DNA of 64,000 nt, taken from assembly GCF_024734405.1 (NCBI RefSeq), contig NZ_CP059556.1, positions 5,146,001 to 5,210,000 of the forward strand, given 5' to 3'. Below are positions 5,813-44,254 of the stretch, piece by piece. Position 1 is the first letter of the stretch; each line of letters begins with the position of its first letter. Source of the stretch: Saccharopolyspora gregorii. GTDB taxonomy: Bacteria; Actinomycetota; Actinomycetes; Mycobacteriales; Pseudonocardiaceae. Under the pieces are notes generated by a model that was not told the DNA's origin, ran no database searches, and saw nothing but the letters and a program-made list of their open reading frames with translations. Position numbers and translations under genes: made by a program.

Positions 5813-5840
5813 GGTCGTGGGAGAGGTGTGCCGAGATCTT

Positions 5841-6372
5841 TGATCTTGGCCCCTCTCCCTTTCGCATTTCCGTACGGGGGCCGAGCCCCCGTAGGCCCCC
5901 ACGGTGCGGTGGGCACCTGTGGAGGGCGCGGCGGATCTCGCACCGAGACGGGCTGAGGGAACGACGGGAAACTTCGCGGGGGTCCGGACAGGATCCCGGG
6001 CCCGGCCTGGGCCGTCCTTTGATCTTGGCCCCTCTCCCTTTCGCATTTCCGCATGGGGGCCGAGCCCCGTAGGCCCCCACGGTGCGGTAGGCACCTGTGG
6101 AGGGCGCGGCGGATCTCGCACTGAGGCAGGCTGGGGGACGGCGGGGAACTTCGCGGGGGTCCGGGCGGGATCCCGGGCCCGGCCTGGGCCGTCCTTTGAT
6201 CTCGGCCCCTCTCCCTTTCGCATTTCCGCATGGGGGCCGAGCCCCGTAGGCCCCCACGGTGCGGTGGGCGACCTGTGGAGGGCGCGGCGGGTCTCGCACT
6301 GAGACGGGCTGAGGGGACGGCGGGAAGCTTCGCGGGTGTCCGGGCGGGATCCCCGCCTCGGTCTGGGCCGTC
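5841..6372 (+). repeat. Three tandem copies of a ~178-bp intergenic repeat
   Basis: Units begin at TGATCTTGGC (5841), TGATCTTGGC (6020) and TGATCTCGGC (6198), giving periods of 179 and 178 bp. Each unit contains a CCCCTCTCCCTTTCGCA segment, a G-rich/C-rich hairpin (GGGGGC, CGA, GCCCCC in the first copy), CACGGTGCGGTGGGC and a GGCGGGAA-TTCGCGGG segment. Copies 1 and 2 are nearly identical; copy 3 decays towards its end near 6372. No start codon with a ribosome binding site or conserved protein emerges in any frame, so I treat this as non-coding. Confidence 0.85.
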
Positions 6373-6798
6373 CACCTCTCGCCCGGGACACGGTCGCCGG
6401 CTCGCGGCCGACGACGGCAGAGCCGGCACTGGCGTTCGAAGCGTGGACAGCCGCCTGTGCGGGCACGTCGGAACCTCGGCCGGTGCGGTCGTGGGCGCGG
6501 CCCCCGCCAGTGGGGCGGACCCGCGCGCACTCCACGAGCGGGAACTCCGCGGAGCCGCTCCATCGACCGTTCCGGCTCCCGAATACGGCGATCCGCTCAC
6601 CCGGGCCGATGTGATGTCCACCGGACCGCAGAAGCCGTCGGACGAGATCCTCGCGGCGTTGCTCGACCCCACCGACGGTCCGGAAGATAGGCTCCGGAGT
6701 CGCCTTCGCTGTGCCCTGACCACGGCCGACGGTGCCGCGATGCCGGTGTGCGTCCGCTCTGCGCGGCGCGGCGGACCCAAGGAGACGAAGGGACCCCG
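6373..6798. other. Intergenic stretch between the repeats and the SnoaL-like gene
   Basis: This 426-bp region gives no recognisable protein in either direction; the open frames are Arg/Pro/Gly-rich, as expected for shadow frames in GC-rich DNA. It should include the promoter of the gene starting at 6799. Confidence 0.5.
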
Positions 6799-40615: not shown

Positions 40616-41101
40616 TCAGCGCTGGGTGCCGGCGGCGTCGGCGAGCATCCGCAACGCGCTGAGCAGCCCTTCGATCATCTCGCCCTCCTTGAACGAAGCG
40701 ACCATCGTCATCAGCGCCAGCTGGCAACTGCGGTCCGGGACGCGGCGCTTCGACTCCTCGCCGGTCACGATCTCCACCGCCCGCTGCTGCGGCGACACCG
40801 CCAGCAGCACCCCTTCGGCGGCGCGCGCCCCGAGGTTGGCGTGCAGCTCGCCCGCGGTCTCCCGGGTCTGCTCGCCGAGGTCGCCCAGGTACACCGCGAA
40901 CTCCAGCCCGGTGCTGCGGCTGGAGAGGGTGAGCGCCTCGTCGAGCCGGGCGAGCTGACCGGTGCTGAACGGCAGGTGCGGCCCTTCCGGGCGGACGCGC
41001 CGGGCGATGGACAGCCGGCCGGTCGCGGTCACCGCCTCCCCGGTCGCCAGGTCCTGGTCGCCGCCGGAGCGGCCCTCGCCGGTGATCTCACCAGTGGCCA
41101 C
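40616..41101 (-). CDS. DUF5130 family protein
   Basis: A 161-residue protein recognised by its context and by segments SIARRVRPEGPHLPFS, FAVYLGDLG and NLGARAAEGVLLAVSPQQRAVEIVTGEE, read as separate stretches. The latter recalls the TPM-type phosphatase/assembly domain pattern, but the function of DUF5130 is not established. The GTG at 41101 overlaps the end of ctaJ by 14 bp, implying translational coupling. This pairing with ctaJ suggests a role linked to the aa3 oxidase. Confidence 0.85.
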   Translation of the reverse strand: MATGEITGEGRSGGDQDLATGEAVTATGRLSIARRVRPEGPHLPFSTGQLARLDEALTLSSRSTGLEFAVYLGDLGEQTRETAGELHANLGARAAEGVLLAVSPQQRAVEIVTGEESKRRVPDRSCQLALMTMVASFKEGEMIEGLLSALRMLADAAGTQR

Positions 41102-41363
41102 GTGCGCCTCCCCGGTCGGTGCTGTGCGCGTGCTCGGCTGCGGCGGACGCCGTCTCCGCGGAGTCCTGGTCGCCCGGCGGCGCGGTGCTCACGCGCGCCG
41201 GATCGGCCACCCAGAACACCGGGGCGAACTCCCAGTCCTGCCCTGCGCGGTATCGGGAACGGGTCAGCTTCGAGCGGAGGGTGATCAGCGCGACCAGGAG
41301 GTACACGGACGCCGGGATCACCGCCAGCACGAGGAAGGTCTCAACCGCAGTCACGCTGAGCAC
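41088..41363 (-). CDS. ctaJ: aa3-type cytochrome oxidase accessory subunit CtaJ
   Basis: A 91-residue single-pass membrane protein with a membrane segment at about residues 4-28 and the conserved cytoplasmic stretch LTRSRYRAGQDWEFAPVFWV. This matches the small subunit CtaJ found in mycobacterial III2IV2 supercomplex structures. The start is taken at GTG 41363; a GTG at 41354 is an alternative. Its stop codon lies within the DUF5130 gene. Confidence 0.82.
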   Translation of the reverse strand: MLSVTAVETFLVLAVIPASVYLLVALITLRSKLTRSRYRAGQDWEFAPVFWVADPARVSTAPPGDQDSAETASAAAEHAHSTDRGGARGHW

Positions 41364-42079
41364 GGTAGCCGATCACGTCGCCGCGTGGGACGACGCCACG
41401 GCACGCCCGTGTCCTCCGCCCGAGGTCCGGCCGCCGCCGCGAACCGGCCTGTGGACAGCCCGGCATTCTTGTGGACAACTCCGATCCGCTTTTCCGCGCA
41501 CGCGGAACAAGACCGGCGAGACCTCTCCGCCACCTGGGGAAACGACAATTCCTCGCGCACCGGATCGCGCGGACCGGTGCAGAATCCGATCGGCGGAATC
41601 GGTACCGCAGCCGGTCGATCCGCCCGCGCCCGGGAGCACGCGACTTCAATTTCCGGTGAAAACACGTGCGTCCGAACGGGTGAGCCGGGGCCGTTCTTGA
41701 CACGAGAACGGTTTCGTGCGAGGAACCTGCTCTTCGGACCCGCCCCGCCACCGCGGTCACTCCTGGTGCCGGGGACCGGCGCCGAACAGGGGATTCGCCC
41801 CGCGGAACGGGCTCGGCAGGACCATCCCGAGCGTCGCCGGCGACTCCCGCGACCGCCGACGCCGACCGCCGCGGCGGCGCACGGGCCAGGCCACGCCTGG
41901 TGAGCAGCGCACGTCGATTCCGTGACCGCACGTGACCATCCCGGCCCTGAGCAGGACAAGGGCTACCGAAAGTCACTAGTCAAGCGTGTCGCGCCTCACG
42001 TAATGTAACTCTTTCAGCGCAATCGCCGCCGCCGAATGGAGCCCATCCAGAAGGTCGCAGCGGGCGGCGAGTTGGCGGC
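41364..42079. other. Long intergenic region upstream of the RIS-repeat gene
   Basis: More than 700 bp without a gene I can support. Frames in 41380-41960 on both strands are Arg/Pro/Gly-rich with no recognisable motif. From about 41975 the DNA becomes noticeably AT-richer (CACTAGTCAAG, TAATGTAACTCTTTC), in line with a promoter region or with foreign DNA at this insertion point. Confidence 0.5.
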
Positions 42080-42108
42080 TTGTTTGAACGCTCCCGCGCT
42101 TCTAGTTT
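42080..42108 (+). promoter_or_regulatory. Candidate promoter of the RIS-repeat gene
   Basis: TTGTTT at 42080-42085 and TAGTTT at 42103-42108 are spaced by exactly 17 bp, close to the actinobacterial vegetative pattern (TTGxxx, TAxxxT). Transcription would begin near 42115, leaving a leader of about 66 bases before the ATG at 42181. Confidence 0.5.
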
Positions 42109-42180
42109 TTCACCTGTATGGGTCTTGCATATTTGATCACTAGCCCCATGGACAGTCCATTCGCCTGCGGGAGGCACACC

Positions 42181-43566
42181 ATGTCGTCGATCAACACCGC
42201 CGCTCAGCGCAATCTTGGCACCATTTTCCAGAACGCGCAGCCCCTTGTCGAACACGTTCCGCACACGGCTTCCGGCATCCGCATCAGCGGGACGGATCGC
42301 GGGGTCCGGATCAGCGGTGCCGACCGGGGCGTGCGGATCAGCTCGCAGTCCGGAGTCCGCATCAGCGGCGCCCGGCGCGGGGTGCGGATCAGCTCGGCGG
42401 ACCGCGGGGTCCGGATCAGCGGCGAAGACCGGGGCGTGCGGATCAGCTCGCGGGGCGTGCGCATCAGCGGCGGCGACCGCGGCGTCCGCATCAGCGGCAC
42501 CGAACGCGGCGTGCGGATCAGCGGCGAGGACCGCGGTGTGCGGATCAGCTCGCGCTGCGGGGTCCGGATCAGCTCGCGGGCAGGCGTGCGGATCAGCGGC
42601 GAGGAGCGCGGTGTCCGGATCTCAGGTCAGGAGCGCGGTGTCCGGATCAGCTCGCGGACCGGCGTCCGGATCAGCGGCACCGAGCGGGGCGTCCGGATCT
42701 CCGGCCACGACCGCGGCGTGCGCATCAGCGGTGCGGACCGCGGCGTGCGGATCAGCTCGCAGGCAGGCGTCCGGATCTCAGGTCAGGAGCGCGGCGTCCG
42801 GATCAGCTCGCGGACCGGCGTCCGGATCAGCGGCACCGAGCAAGGCGTCCGGATCTCCGGCCACGACCGCGGCGTGCGCATCAGCGGTGCGGACCGCGGC
42901 GTGCGGATCAGCTCGCAGGCAGGCGTCCGGATCTCAGGTCAGGAGCGCGGCGTCCGGATCAGCGGCGAGGACCGCGGCGTGCGGATCAGCTCGCGCTGCG
43001 GGGTCCGGATCAGCTCGCGGGCGGGCGTCCGGATCAGCGGCGAGAACCGCGGGGTCCGGATCAGCTCGCAGCGGCGCGGCGTCCGCATCAGCAGCCGGGC
43101 CGGCGTGCGGATCAGCGGCCAGCAGGGCGTGCGCATCAGCAGCACCGACCGCGGCGTCCGCATCAGCTCGCGGGCGGGCGTCCGGATCTCCGGCCAGGAC
43201 CGCGGCGTGCGGATCAGCGGCCGGCACGGCGTCCGGATCAGCAGCACCGACCGCGGCGTCCGGATCAGCGCCGAGGACCGCGGCGTCCGGATCAGCTCGC
43301 AAGCAGGCGTCCGGATCAGCGCAGCCGAGCGCGGCGTCCGCATCAGTGCGGCGGACCGCGGCGTCCGGATCAGCTCGCAAGCAGGCGTCCGGATCAGCGC
43401 AGCCGAGCGCGGCGTCCGCATCAGTGCGGCGGACCGCGGCGTCCGGATCAGCTCGCAAGCGGGCGTGCGCATTAGCTCGGCCTACCGCGGCGTCCGGATC
43501 TCCGGCCAGGACCGCGGCGTGCGGATCAGCGGCCGGAGTTCCCGTCAGCTCACCGCGGCGGCCTGA
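42181..43566 (+). CDS. RIS-repeat protein: 49 tandem 8-9 residue repeats, unknown function
   Basis: A 461-residue protein. A non-repetitive N-terminus of about 32 residues (MSSINTAAQRNLGTIFQNAQ onward) is followed by 49 repeats to the end. Two unit types alternate: nine residues, RISGxDRGV (x often A, E, T, Q or H; D may be E), and eight residues, RISSxAGV. There are only three changes at most in the RIS core and no membrane segment. GGGAGG lies 7 bases before the ATG at 42181; an ATG at 42118 in frame lacks this. At the DNA level a 156-bp block (units 14-19) is duplicated in tandem and a 78-bp block (units 40-42) likewise. The alternating V-R-I-S pattern predicts stacked beta strands, as in a solenoid or fibre, with Arg and Ser outside. 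I know no named family. Confidence 0.8.
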   Translation: MSSINTAAQRNLGTIFQNAQPLVEHVPHTASGIRISGTDRGVRISGADRGVRISSQSGVRISGARRGVRISSADRGVRISGEDRGVRISSRGVRISGGDRGVRISGTERGVRISGEDRGVRISSRCGVRISSRAGVRISGEERGVRISGQERGVRISSRTGVRISGTERGVRISGHDRGVRISGADRGVRISSQAGVRISGQERGVRISSRTGVRISGTEQGVRISGHDRGVRISGADRGVRISSQAGVRISGQERGVRISGEDRGVRISSRCGVRISSRAGVRISGENRGVRISSQRRGVRISSRAGVRISGQQGVRISSTDRGVRISSRAGVRISGQDRGVRISGRHGVRISSTDRGVRISAEDRGVRISSQAGVRISAAERGVRISAADRGVRISSQAGVRISAAERGVRISAADRGVRISSQAGVRISSAYRGVRISGQDRGVRISGRSSRQLTAAA

Positions 43567-43593
43567 CGTGTCCGCAGCGCCGTCACGCCGCCG
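43556..43593. terminator. Hairpin shared by the convergent RIS-repeat and HNH genes
   Basis: CGGCGGC (43556-43562) pairs with GCCGCCG (43587-43593), and TGAC/GTCA extends the stem after one mismatch, leaving a 14-base loop. The hairpin includes both stop codons, which are only 16 bp apart. Confidence 0.5.
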
Positions 43594-44254
43594 ATTCGCC
43601 CAGGTACGGCAGCCACAGCGGGTCCGTCTCGGACAGCCCGGCGATCAGCCGCCAGTGCCTGCCGCGCGGAGCGTGCGGGGCCACCGGCAGCTGCCAGCCC
43701 AGTTCGCTGAGCGTCTTGTCCGCCTTGCGGTGGTTGCACCTGGTGCAGCAAGCGACGCAGTTCTCCCACTCGTGCGGCCCGCCCCGGCTGCGCGGCACCA
43801 CGTGATCGATCGTCTCGGCCCGCCCCCCGCAGTACACGCAGCGATGCCCGTCGCGGTGCATCAGCGCGGACCGGGTGAGCGGAACGCGCCCCCGGTACGG
43901 GACGCGGACGAAGCTGCTGAGCCGGATGACCGACGGCACCTGGTGGCTGCTGGTGGCCGAGTGCAGCACCAGCCCCGCCGAGTCGCCGTGCACGACCTCC
44001 GCCTTGCCGCAGACCAGCAGCACGATCGCCCTGCGCAGCGGAAGCGCGGTCAGCGGTTCGAAGGTCGTGTTGAGCAGCAGCACCCGCCGCTTGCGCCAGG
44101 CGGGTGCGGAAGTGCCCGACTGCCCGGCGGGCGGCGCGTGGCACAGCGTCGCCCGAGGCGCGAGCCCGGCGGCCGCGCCTGTCGGAGTCGGTATTCGGTC
44201 GTGCACGCGACCACCTCCACCGGTTGGCAAGGACCAGTCGACCACAATCGACAC
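43583..44254 (-). CDS. HNH endonuclease
   Basis: A 223-residue protein with a full HNH domain: CVYCG (Cys139, Cys142), TIDHVVPRSRGGPHEWENCV with Asp150-His151 and Asn165, and CCTRCNHRKADK (Cys170, Cys173, Asn174, His175). The upstream half has VLLLNTTFEPLTALPLRRAIVLL, typical of the widespread actinobacterial HNH family next to glbO. The first 50 residues look unconserved, so the true start may lie downstream of GTG 44254, for example at GTG 44206. Biological role unknown; likely DNA cleavage or repair. Confidence 0.88.
   Translation of the reverse strand: MSIVVDWSLPTGGGGRVHDRIPTPTGAAAGLAPRATLCHAPPAGQSGTSAPAWRKRRVLLLNTTFEPLTALPLRRAIVLLVCGKAEVVHGDSAGLVLHSATSSHQVPSVIRLSSFVRVPYRGRVPLTRSALMHRDGHRCVYCGGRAETIDHVVPRSRGGPHEWENCVACCTRCNHRKADKTLSELGWQLPVAPHAPRGRHWRLIAGLSETDPLWLPYLGESAA

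Follow-up and report, generated by a model that had tools for sequence, protein, structure and literature searches.

We present here a gene of Saccharopolyspora gregorii that encodes a tandem array of pentapeptides and is a member of a family that most Pseudonocardiaceae, bacteria known for their antibiotics, retain at a single position. The gene lies in the window, the whole stretch of 64,000 nucleotides analyzed here (NCBI RefSeq assembly GCF_024734405.1, contig NZ_CP059556.1, positions 5,146,001 to 5,210,000), and the pentapeptide is preserved by selection both in this gene and, with cores that differ by genus, in its relatives.

The array gene and its product

The gene is an open frame with an ATG start and a TGA stop (Table 1), and its translation agrees with the initial annotation, which had counted 49 repeat units in a protein of 461 residues: 48 copies of GVRIS and one of GIRIS occupy residues 32 to 450, with spacings of nine residues (31 times), eight residues (16 times), and seven residues (once). 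TRF independently finds a tandem array at 42273-43534 and assigns it a period of 156 bp. The order of eight- and nine-residue units had been called non-random; a best lag of 4 (p of about 0.02), compatible with the 156-bp period, speaks for this, but the signal is weak and is uncorrected for the eight lags tested. The GC fractions at the three codon positions are 0.68, 0.63, and 0.91, and third-position GC is also high in both neighboring genes measured. Compared unit against unit, the core has a pN of 0.054 and a pS of 0.32, and the array is far beyond chance. No hydrophobic signal stretch is visible by eye in the N-terminal segment, in keeping with the earlier statement that a secretion signal is absent. 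Elsewhere in the window, at 5838-6373, a 177-bp unit is present in three tandem copies with 92% matches.

Table 1. Array gene, upstream element, and neighboring genes, in positions of the window
Feature	Positions	Strand	Basis
Conserved upstream element, R1 model match	42038..42136	+	Alignment of relatives and R1 search
TTGTTT and TAGTTT with a 17-bp spacer, promoter-like hexamers (putative)	42080..42108	+	Inferred from alignment
Most conserved block, TTTTCACCTGTATGGGTCTTGCATA	42107..42131	+	Alignment; genome scan
Ribosome-binding site GGGAGG	42169..42174	+	Sequence; purine-rich stretch ahead of the ATG in relatives
Array gene, 461 aa, 49 units	42181..43566	+	ORF, codon-position GC, ribosome-binding site, start conserved in relatives
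N-terminal segment, 31 residues, MSxIxTAAQRN..., loosely conserved	42181..42273	+	Alignment and N-termini of relatives
49 pentapeptide units, all GVRIS but for a single GIRIS, joined by 2- to 4-residue linkers	42274..43530	+	Unit count, TRF, purifying selection on core
C-terminal tail GRSSRQLTAAA, 11 residues	43531..43563	+	In many relatives the corresponding end is LAA, tmRNA-tag-like
DUF5130/TPM-domain gene (context)	40616..41101	-	Pfam; conserved neighbor
Small CtaJ-like gene (context)	41088..41363	-	Conserved neighbor; no Pfam family
HNH endonuclease gene, convergent neighbor (context)	43583..44254	-	Pfam HNH

Distribution of the family and its upstream element

A protein search matched 28 of 100 genomes (E ≤ 0.001), and on reading, 26 of the 28 best loci belong to the family, whereas L026 and L027 do not. 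In-frame arrays with cores other than GVRIS were found, namely, SVRIT, GTRVT, GTRIT, and GVRIH, as well as GVRIE at one locus (L013), where core position 5 is acidic. The upstream regions of 25 of the 28 loci were aligned, leaving out the two nonmembers and the GVRIE locus, which falls outside the motif pattern. They share an element of about 100 bp that as a rule lies some 70 nt ahead of the ATG; in L016 and L023, the distance is 53 nt. R1, a sequence-only model of this element, matches 282 of 390 Pseudonocardiaceae genomes and 38 of 46 genera (E ≤ 0.01), once per genome in 277 and twice in 5 (G044, G238, G415, G420, and G421), where the two matches may mark second gene copies. Outside the Pseudonocardiaceae, R1 gave weak matches alone (E of 3.6e-4 or worse). 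An array ORF of at least two units follows the element in all 20 genomes sampled from the R1 matches; the protein search, which included 8 of these genomes, had matched none of the 20. Scanning named genomes for an exact pattern returned at least 80 loci from at least 119 stretches, and among the 80 matches listed, 77 lead to an array gene. The other three (Pedobacter, a Bacteroidetes MAG, and Croceivirga) look like chance.

The initial annotation had the array gene interrupting a conserved gene order. We find instead that an HNH gene is directly convergent with it in 69 of the 77 named relatives listed, which makes the array gene part of that order, at one site; in the remaining eight, the stored locus is too short (six cases), the HNH gene was not found (L146), or it lies 953 nt away (L171). 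On the other side of the array gene are CtaJ-like, DUF5130, and PepN genes, wherever the stretch reaches and the gene was found. The neighbor names PepN, CtaJ (also used in the initial annotation), and S9 peptidase are what we take these genes to be; those of HNH and DUF5130 rest on Pfam.

The approximately 1.5 kb adjacent to the HNH gene was read in 14 genomes, where R1 is clear in one (G106), weak in one (G323), and absent in 12. Arrays are present in the first two and also in G038 (GTRVT), G028 (GIRVT), and G045 (GVRIN), which have no R1 match, so failure of R1 need not mean that the gene is missing. No array ORF was found in this stretch in the other nine genomes, which represent seven genera (G007, G008, G009, G054, G033, G041, G042, G047, and G119); eight of them were also unmatched in the protein search, and the ninth, G119, was outside that search. 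The array of G045 (L257), upstream of the HNH gene, encodes 31 residues, MNTNRGT followed by four GVRINR units. It is the smallest product seen, with leader and tail nearly absent.

Within the class, a GTRVT query matched 54 of 296 genomes; 12 loci were taken from these, and the eight that were read (L238 to L245) are unrelated except for L238, a known member. Neither the GTRVT protein against plasmids nor the window protein against phages gave a match, in searches where the BLAST low-complexity filter may hide repeats, and a pattern scan of IMG/VR gave 0 matches. Literature searches by core strings and by signature proteins of the family returned nothing, and other literature listings contain nothing on this gene as judged from titles and the beginnings of abstracts. 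Removal of six near-identical genes from 102 left 96 unique genes for counting; many family counts mix closely related species, and genus names are taken from sequence titles. Two source names appear to be at odds with their content: a contig titled as a Candidatus Melainabacteria MAG (L139) has the actinobacterial order DUF5130, CtaJ-like gene, array gene, and HNH gene and is probably mis-binned, and a sequence titled Nocardia sp. NRRL S-836 (L162) holds a Lentzea-type SVRIT array, so its name may be wrong.

Within the upstream element, the conserved hexamers TTGTTT and TAGTTT may form a promoter, as judged from the alignment, although an E. coli-type promoter scan did not call them. Two copies of the motif GG-N2/3-CTTG[TC] lie in the element (42074-42128), one surrounding the -35-like hexamer and the other following the -10-like hexamer. 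Their CTTG parts stand 45 nt apart, an arrangement that resembles a direct-repeat operator. A regulon sharing the element was considered and rejected: a scan allowing up to 3 mismatches found no second copy of TTTTCACCTGTATGGGTCTTGCATA in the gene's own genome.

Constancy of the pentapeptide and comparison with known families

Among 92 genes with at least five units each, 1597 of 1604 units, located with a permissive pattern, equal the majority core of their own gene. Preservation of the unit by selection, which the initial annotation proposed alongside recent expansion, holds across these genes as it does within the window gene: compared unit against unit, pN is below pS in 92 of 92, with a median pS of 0.495 and a median pN of 0.011, part of the residual pN arising because AGC/TCN serine codons need two changes. 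A separate count over the 96 unique genes gave 1607 exact core copies and 33 with one difference. Linkers are far less constrained, with a pN of 0.14 to 0.47 in 16 genes with nine-residue units (25 of the 96 genes were input). A close pair of genes (L004 and L010, 99.4% identical) shows a single gap of 24 nt, and three further close pairs have no gaps; the indel lengths of diverged pairs are uninterpretable, as a low gap cost splits gaps.

Constant inside a gene, the core varies by genus (GVRIS, SVRIT, GTRVT, GVRIH, GVRIE, GVRVN, and others), with one nearly invariant Arg per unit. Such uniformity within genes and specificity to genera are expected of receptor co-evolution together with concerted evolution. 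Copy number ranges from 2 to 49 units and unit spacing from 6 to 35 residues, being 6 in most Amycolatopsis and 8 or 9 in Saccharopolyspora and Lentzea, with gaps of up to 35 rare; these ranges and the 31-residue member indicate that what is kept is the unit and not a fold of fixed size. In Prauserella shujinwangii (L168), 12 GVRVT cores stand beside one GVPVT, and pS is 0.255, below the 0.55 to 0.63 of four other arrays (L144, L148, L155, and L160). This lower pS suggests that core switching accompanies re-expansion. An 18-residue period in the six-residue arrays was examined in 29 related arrays and dismissed in favor of linker Arg pairs (lag 2, z of -10.2; lag 3, z of 3.5); a clean period of three occurs in few of them.

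In its near-perfect identity, the core differs from the solenoid repeats measured. As controls, we took the best 12-unit stretches, at the five best positions, of proteins from the same and related genomes. Units were identical in a mean of 11.5% (highest, 25%) in 13 pentapeptide-repeat proteins and 31% (highest, 58%) in 7 RTX proteins; control units are frame-locked, so that insertions lower identity, most of all for RTX, and the gap to the arrays is still wide.

The initial annotation knew of no described family of this kind, and none of those tested by profile searches and permuted controls fits. Above their Pfam cut-offs, DNA_pol3_beta, DUF2345, Sarcoglycan, and DUF3060 match the window protein, and other profiles match its relatives; NCBIfam gave matches below cut-offs alone. 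We do not take such Pfam or NCBIfam matches as membership, since altered-core controls pass cut-offs too. Four of seven permuted copies gave no match above cut-off and three did: a reversed copy of the window protein matched Gp5, DUF3060, DUF2345, and others, one scrambled copy of it passed the RTX cut-off, and a reversed copy of one relative, L182, matched DUF2345, RTX, and others. In eight further permutations of L182, DUF2345 passed in two, each of which preserves the two-residue distance between V and I; other families passed in three of the eight. Over all 11 L182 permutations, DUF2345 passes in 3 of the 5 that preserve this distance and in none of the 6 that break it, which indicates that the profile matches follow generic beta alternation and not membership. 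PHROGs gave nothing useful for array proteins, and PADLOC anti-phage models matched none of five (E up to 1). Sequence searches of the PDB returned a tail fiber for the window protein (E of 5.4e-4), with all else at E of 0.9 or worse, and nothing better than an E of 0.02 for L129 and L182.

A relation to RTX repeats (PF00353), whose likeness to the array was remarked on in the initial annotation, is not borne out. Nine-residue units in some members and Gly and Asp in the linkers resemble RTX, but PF00353 is not among the six families listed for the window protein (E up to 10) and is unmatched in its own genome (E of 0.001), the arrays lack the GGxGxD loop or GGxGxDxUx pattern, linkers vary in their Asp or have none, some units are 6 or 8 residues long, and no secretion signal is visible by eye. 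Pentapeptide-repeat (PF00805) and Hexapep proteins are likewise built of short tandem units with a beta pattern, and six-residue array members come near to LbH spacing; no match to the Pentapeptide profile with its A(D/N)LXX units was found in 10 array proteins scanned, however, and the two kinds of repeat differ widely in unit identity, as given above. Hexapep (PF00132) is passed by one GVRIH member, at 31 bits against a cut-off of 27, and is not listed for the GTRVT members L129 and L144. The needle beta-helix of VgrG and gp5 (DUF2345, Gp5_trimer_C) shares beta-alternating short repeats, with DUF2345 above cut-off; altered alternating cores match it too, though, and no T6SS or phage context was seen.

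Possible functions of the array

A pentapeptide kept so strictly is very likely recognized by something in its exact sequence. Tentatively, we favor a reading in which the product stays in the cytosol, turns over quickly, and presents identical recognition peptides in series to a putative partner protein. Each pentapeptide would dock as a short extended strand in a pocket of this partner, with [VTI] and [IV] on one side and Arg and [STHNE] on the other; it is this alternation that suggests an extended strand. The partner would co-evolve with the core, and the array may titrate or scaffold this partner in many copies. Where an LAA end is present, it would let ClpXP, or a protease related to it, remove the array, and under such turnover the number of free sites would follow promoter activity.

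LAA is the C-terminus of 41 of 90 complete array proteins and of 1 of 219 neighboring ORFs (long ORFs of coding-type composition), two sets that both contain many orthologues and hence are non-independent. The LAA end is common to several genera. In 29 of the 90 proteins, no more than two residues follow the final core, and the remainder vary. Each of the 13 tmRNA tags examined has ALAA as its C-terminus: in G196, the tag is AKANSQRDFALAA and the array ends in QADYSLAA, and in G006, the tag is ANKSRADFALAA and the array ends in ARGDFALAA. At one locus (L230, in G201), ARAGORN gave an unusually long tag, ANSNERVQVANATRGDFALAA. According to PMC3613350, an LAA tag reduces the level of a reporter in M. 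tuberculosis, and PMC9262239 describes coded -LAA-type ends that target full-length mycobacteriophage repressor and integrase for proteolysis. The array proteins resemble these phage proteins in their coded, ssrA-like C-terminus; what carries the end there is a repressor or integrase, and here a run of identical pentapeptides, with LAA in part of the family.

Several points count against the reading as docking peptides. Forty-nine of the 90 complete members, the window protein among them, lack an LAA end, so that a degron is not essential to the family, and it is doubtful for the window protein, which ends in TAAA. Many members have quite regular spacing, of exactly six residues in most Amycolatopsis, which would not be needed by a loose string of sites. 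The profile matches follow the beta alternation of the core and would fit a beta fold equally.

The chief alternatives are self-assembly and a peptide precursor fed to a protease. Self-assembly as a beta protein is possible but doubtful. The units would form a beta solenoid or a cross-beta fiber, V/I filling the interior and Arg/Ser forming ladders on the exterior, and homotypic stacking would select identical units. The core has a beta-strand pattern in all genera read, unit spacing is often regular, and six-residue members weakly match left-handed beta-helix chains; the Hexapep pass of the GVRIH member points the same way, as do the DUF2345 passes of eight- and nine-residue members and their dependence on alternation in the L182 permutations. 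This alternation behind the profile matches mildly favors a beta structure, and the stacked beta structure that the initial annotation predicted may yet hold. Against it, reversed and altered cores match as well, and one scrambled copy of the window protein passes RTX; the solenoid repeats measured tolerate many changes; and a mix of 6-, 8-, and 9-residue units and members of two to four units build no regular solenoid.

That the protein is a peptide precursor, cut by ClpXP or another protease into penta- to nonapeptides that signal intracellularly or after export, with copy number setting the dose, is unlikely. FMRFamide-type precursors, the multi-copy peptide-hormone precursors of animals, likewise combine a short core of exact sequence with free linkers, a variable number of copies, and cores specific to a lineage; pentapeptide signals containing Arg/Thr are known from the Phr peptides of Bacillus, and an LAA end would hand the array to a protease. 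The arrays differ from FMRFamide-type precursors in having no signal peptide by eye and no dibasic sites, in their place in the bacterial cytosol, and in their ssrA-like end. Further against a precursor, the linkers have no constant cleavage site, no dedicated protease, exporter, or receptor was recognized nearby among neighbors annotated in part, and LAA is missing from more than half of the complete members. A signal precursor of a new type, a cytosolic pentapeptide polyprotein delivered to ClpXP by its ssrA-like end and yielding genus-specific peptides for a co-evolving receptor throughout the Pseudonocardiaceae, is improbable.

Binding of nucleic acid or another polyanion by an Arg-rich array is very unlikely. 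The near-invariant Arg of each unit and the net charge of +60 over the 461 residues of the window protein would suit it, but 20 proteins of the SVRIT branch average -0.013 net charge per residue, so that the strongly basic face seen in the initial annotation is no property of the family. A multi-core RiPP precursor whose modifying enzyme is encoded elsewhere is highly improbable: repeated cores do follow a leader-like N-terminal segment, and Ser/Thr are present and Cys occasional, but none of the five conserved neighbors (HNH, DUF5130, PepN, CtaJ-like, and S9 peptidase) is a modifying enzyme, one and the same modification could scarcely act on position 5, where the residue is S, T, H, N, or E according to genus, and the 31-residue member is nearly leaderless. 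Action of the repeat or the 5′ element as RNA or DNA, with translation incidental, fits the strong conservation of the upstream element but is scarcely credible, being largely refuted by the codon pattern, in which amino acids are fixed though synonymous sites have diverged. Also against it are the conserved start codon and ribosome-binding site, the folding of the element (RNAalifold, -2.3 kcal/mol with one covarying pair), and the lack of any Rfam match over 41900-43600 (E up to 5).

Most of the Pseudonocardiaceae carry, at a single site and with its own conserved upstream element, a gene that the tested profile libraries do not pick up, probably owing to the confounding effect of its repeats on similarity searches. 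Identification of its partner would reveal a new means of titrating proteins by a self-destroying array, or else a new kind of self-assembling repeat or of peptide signaling.
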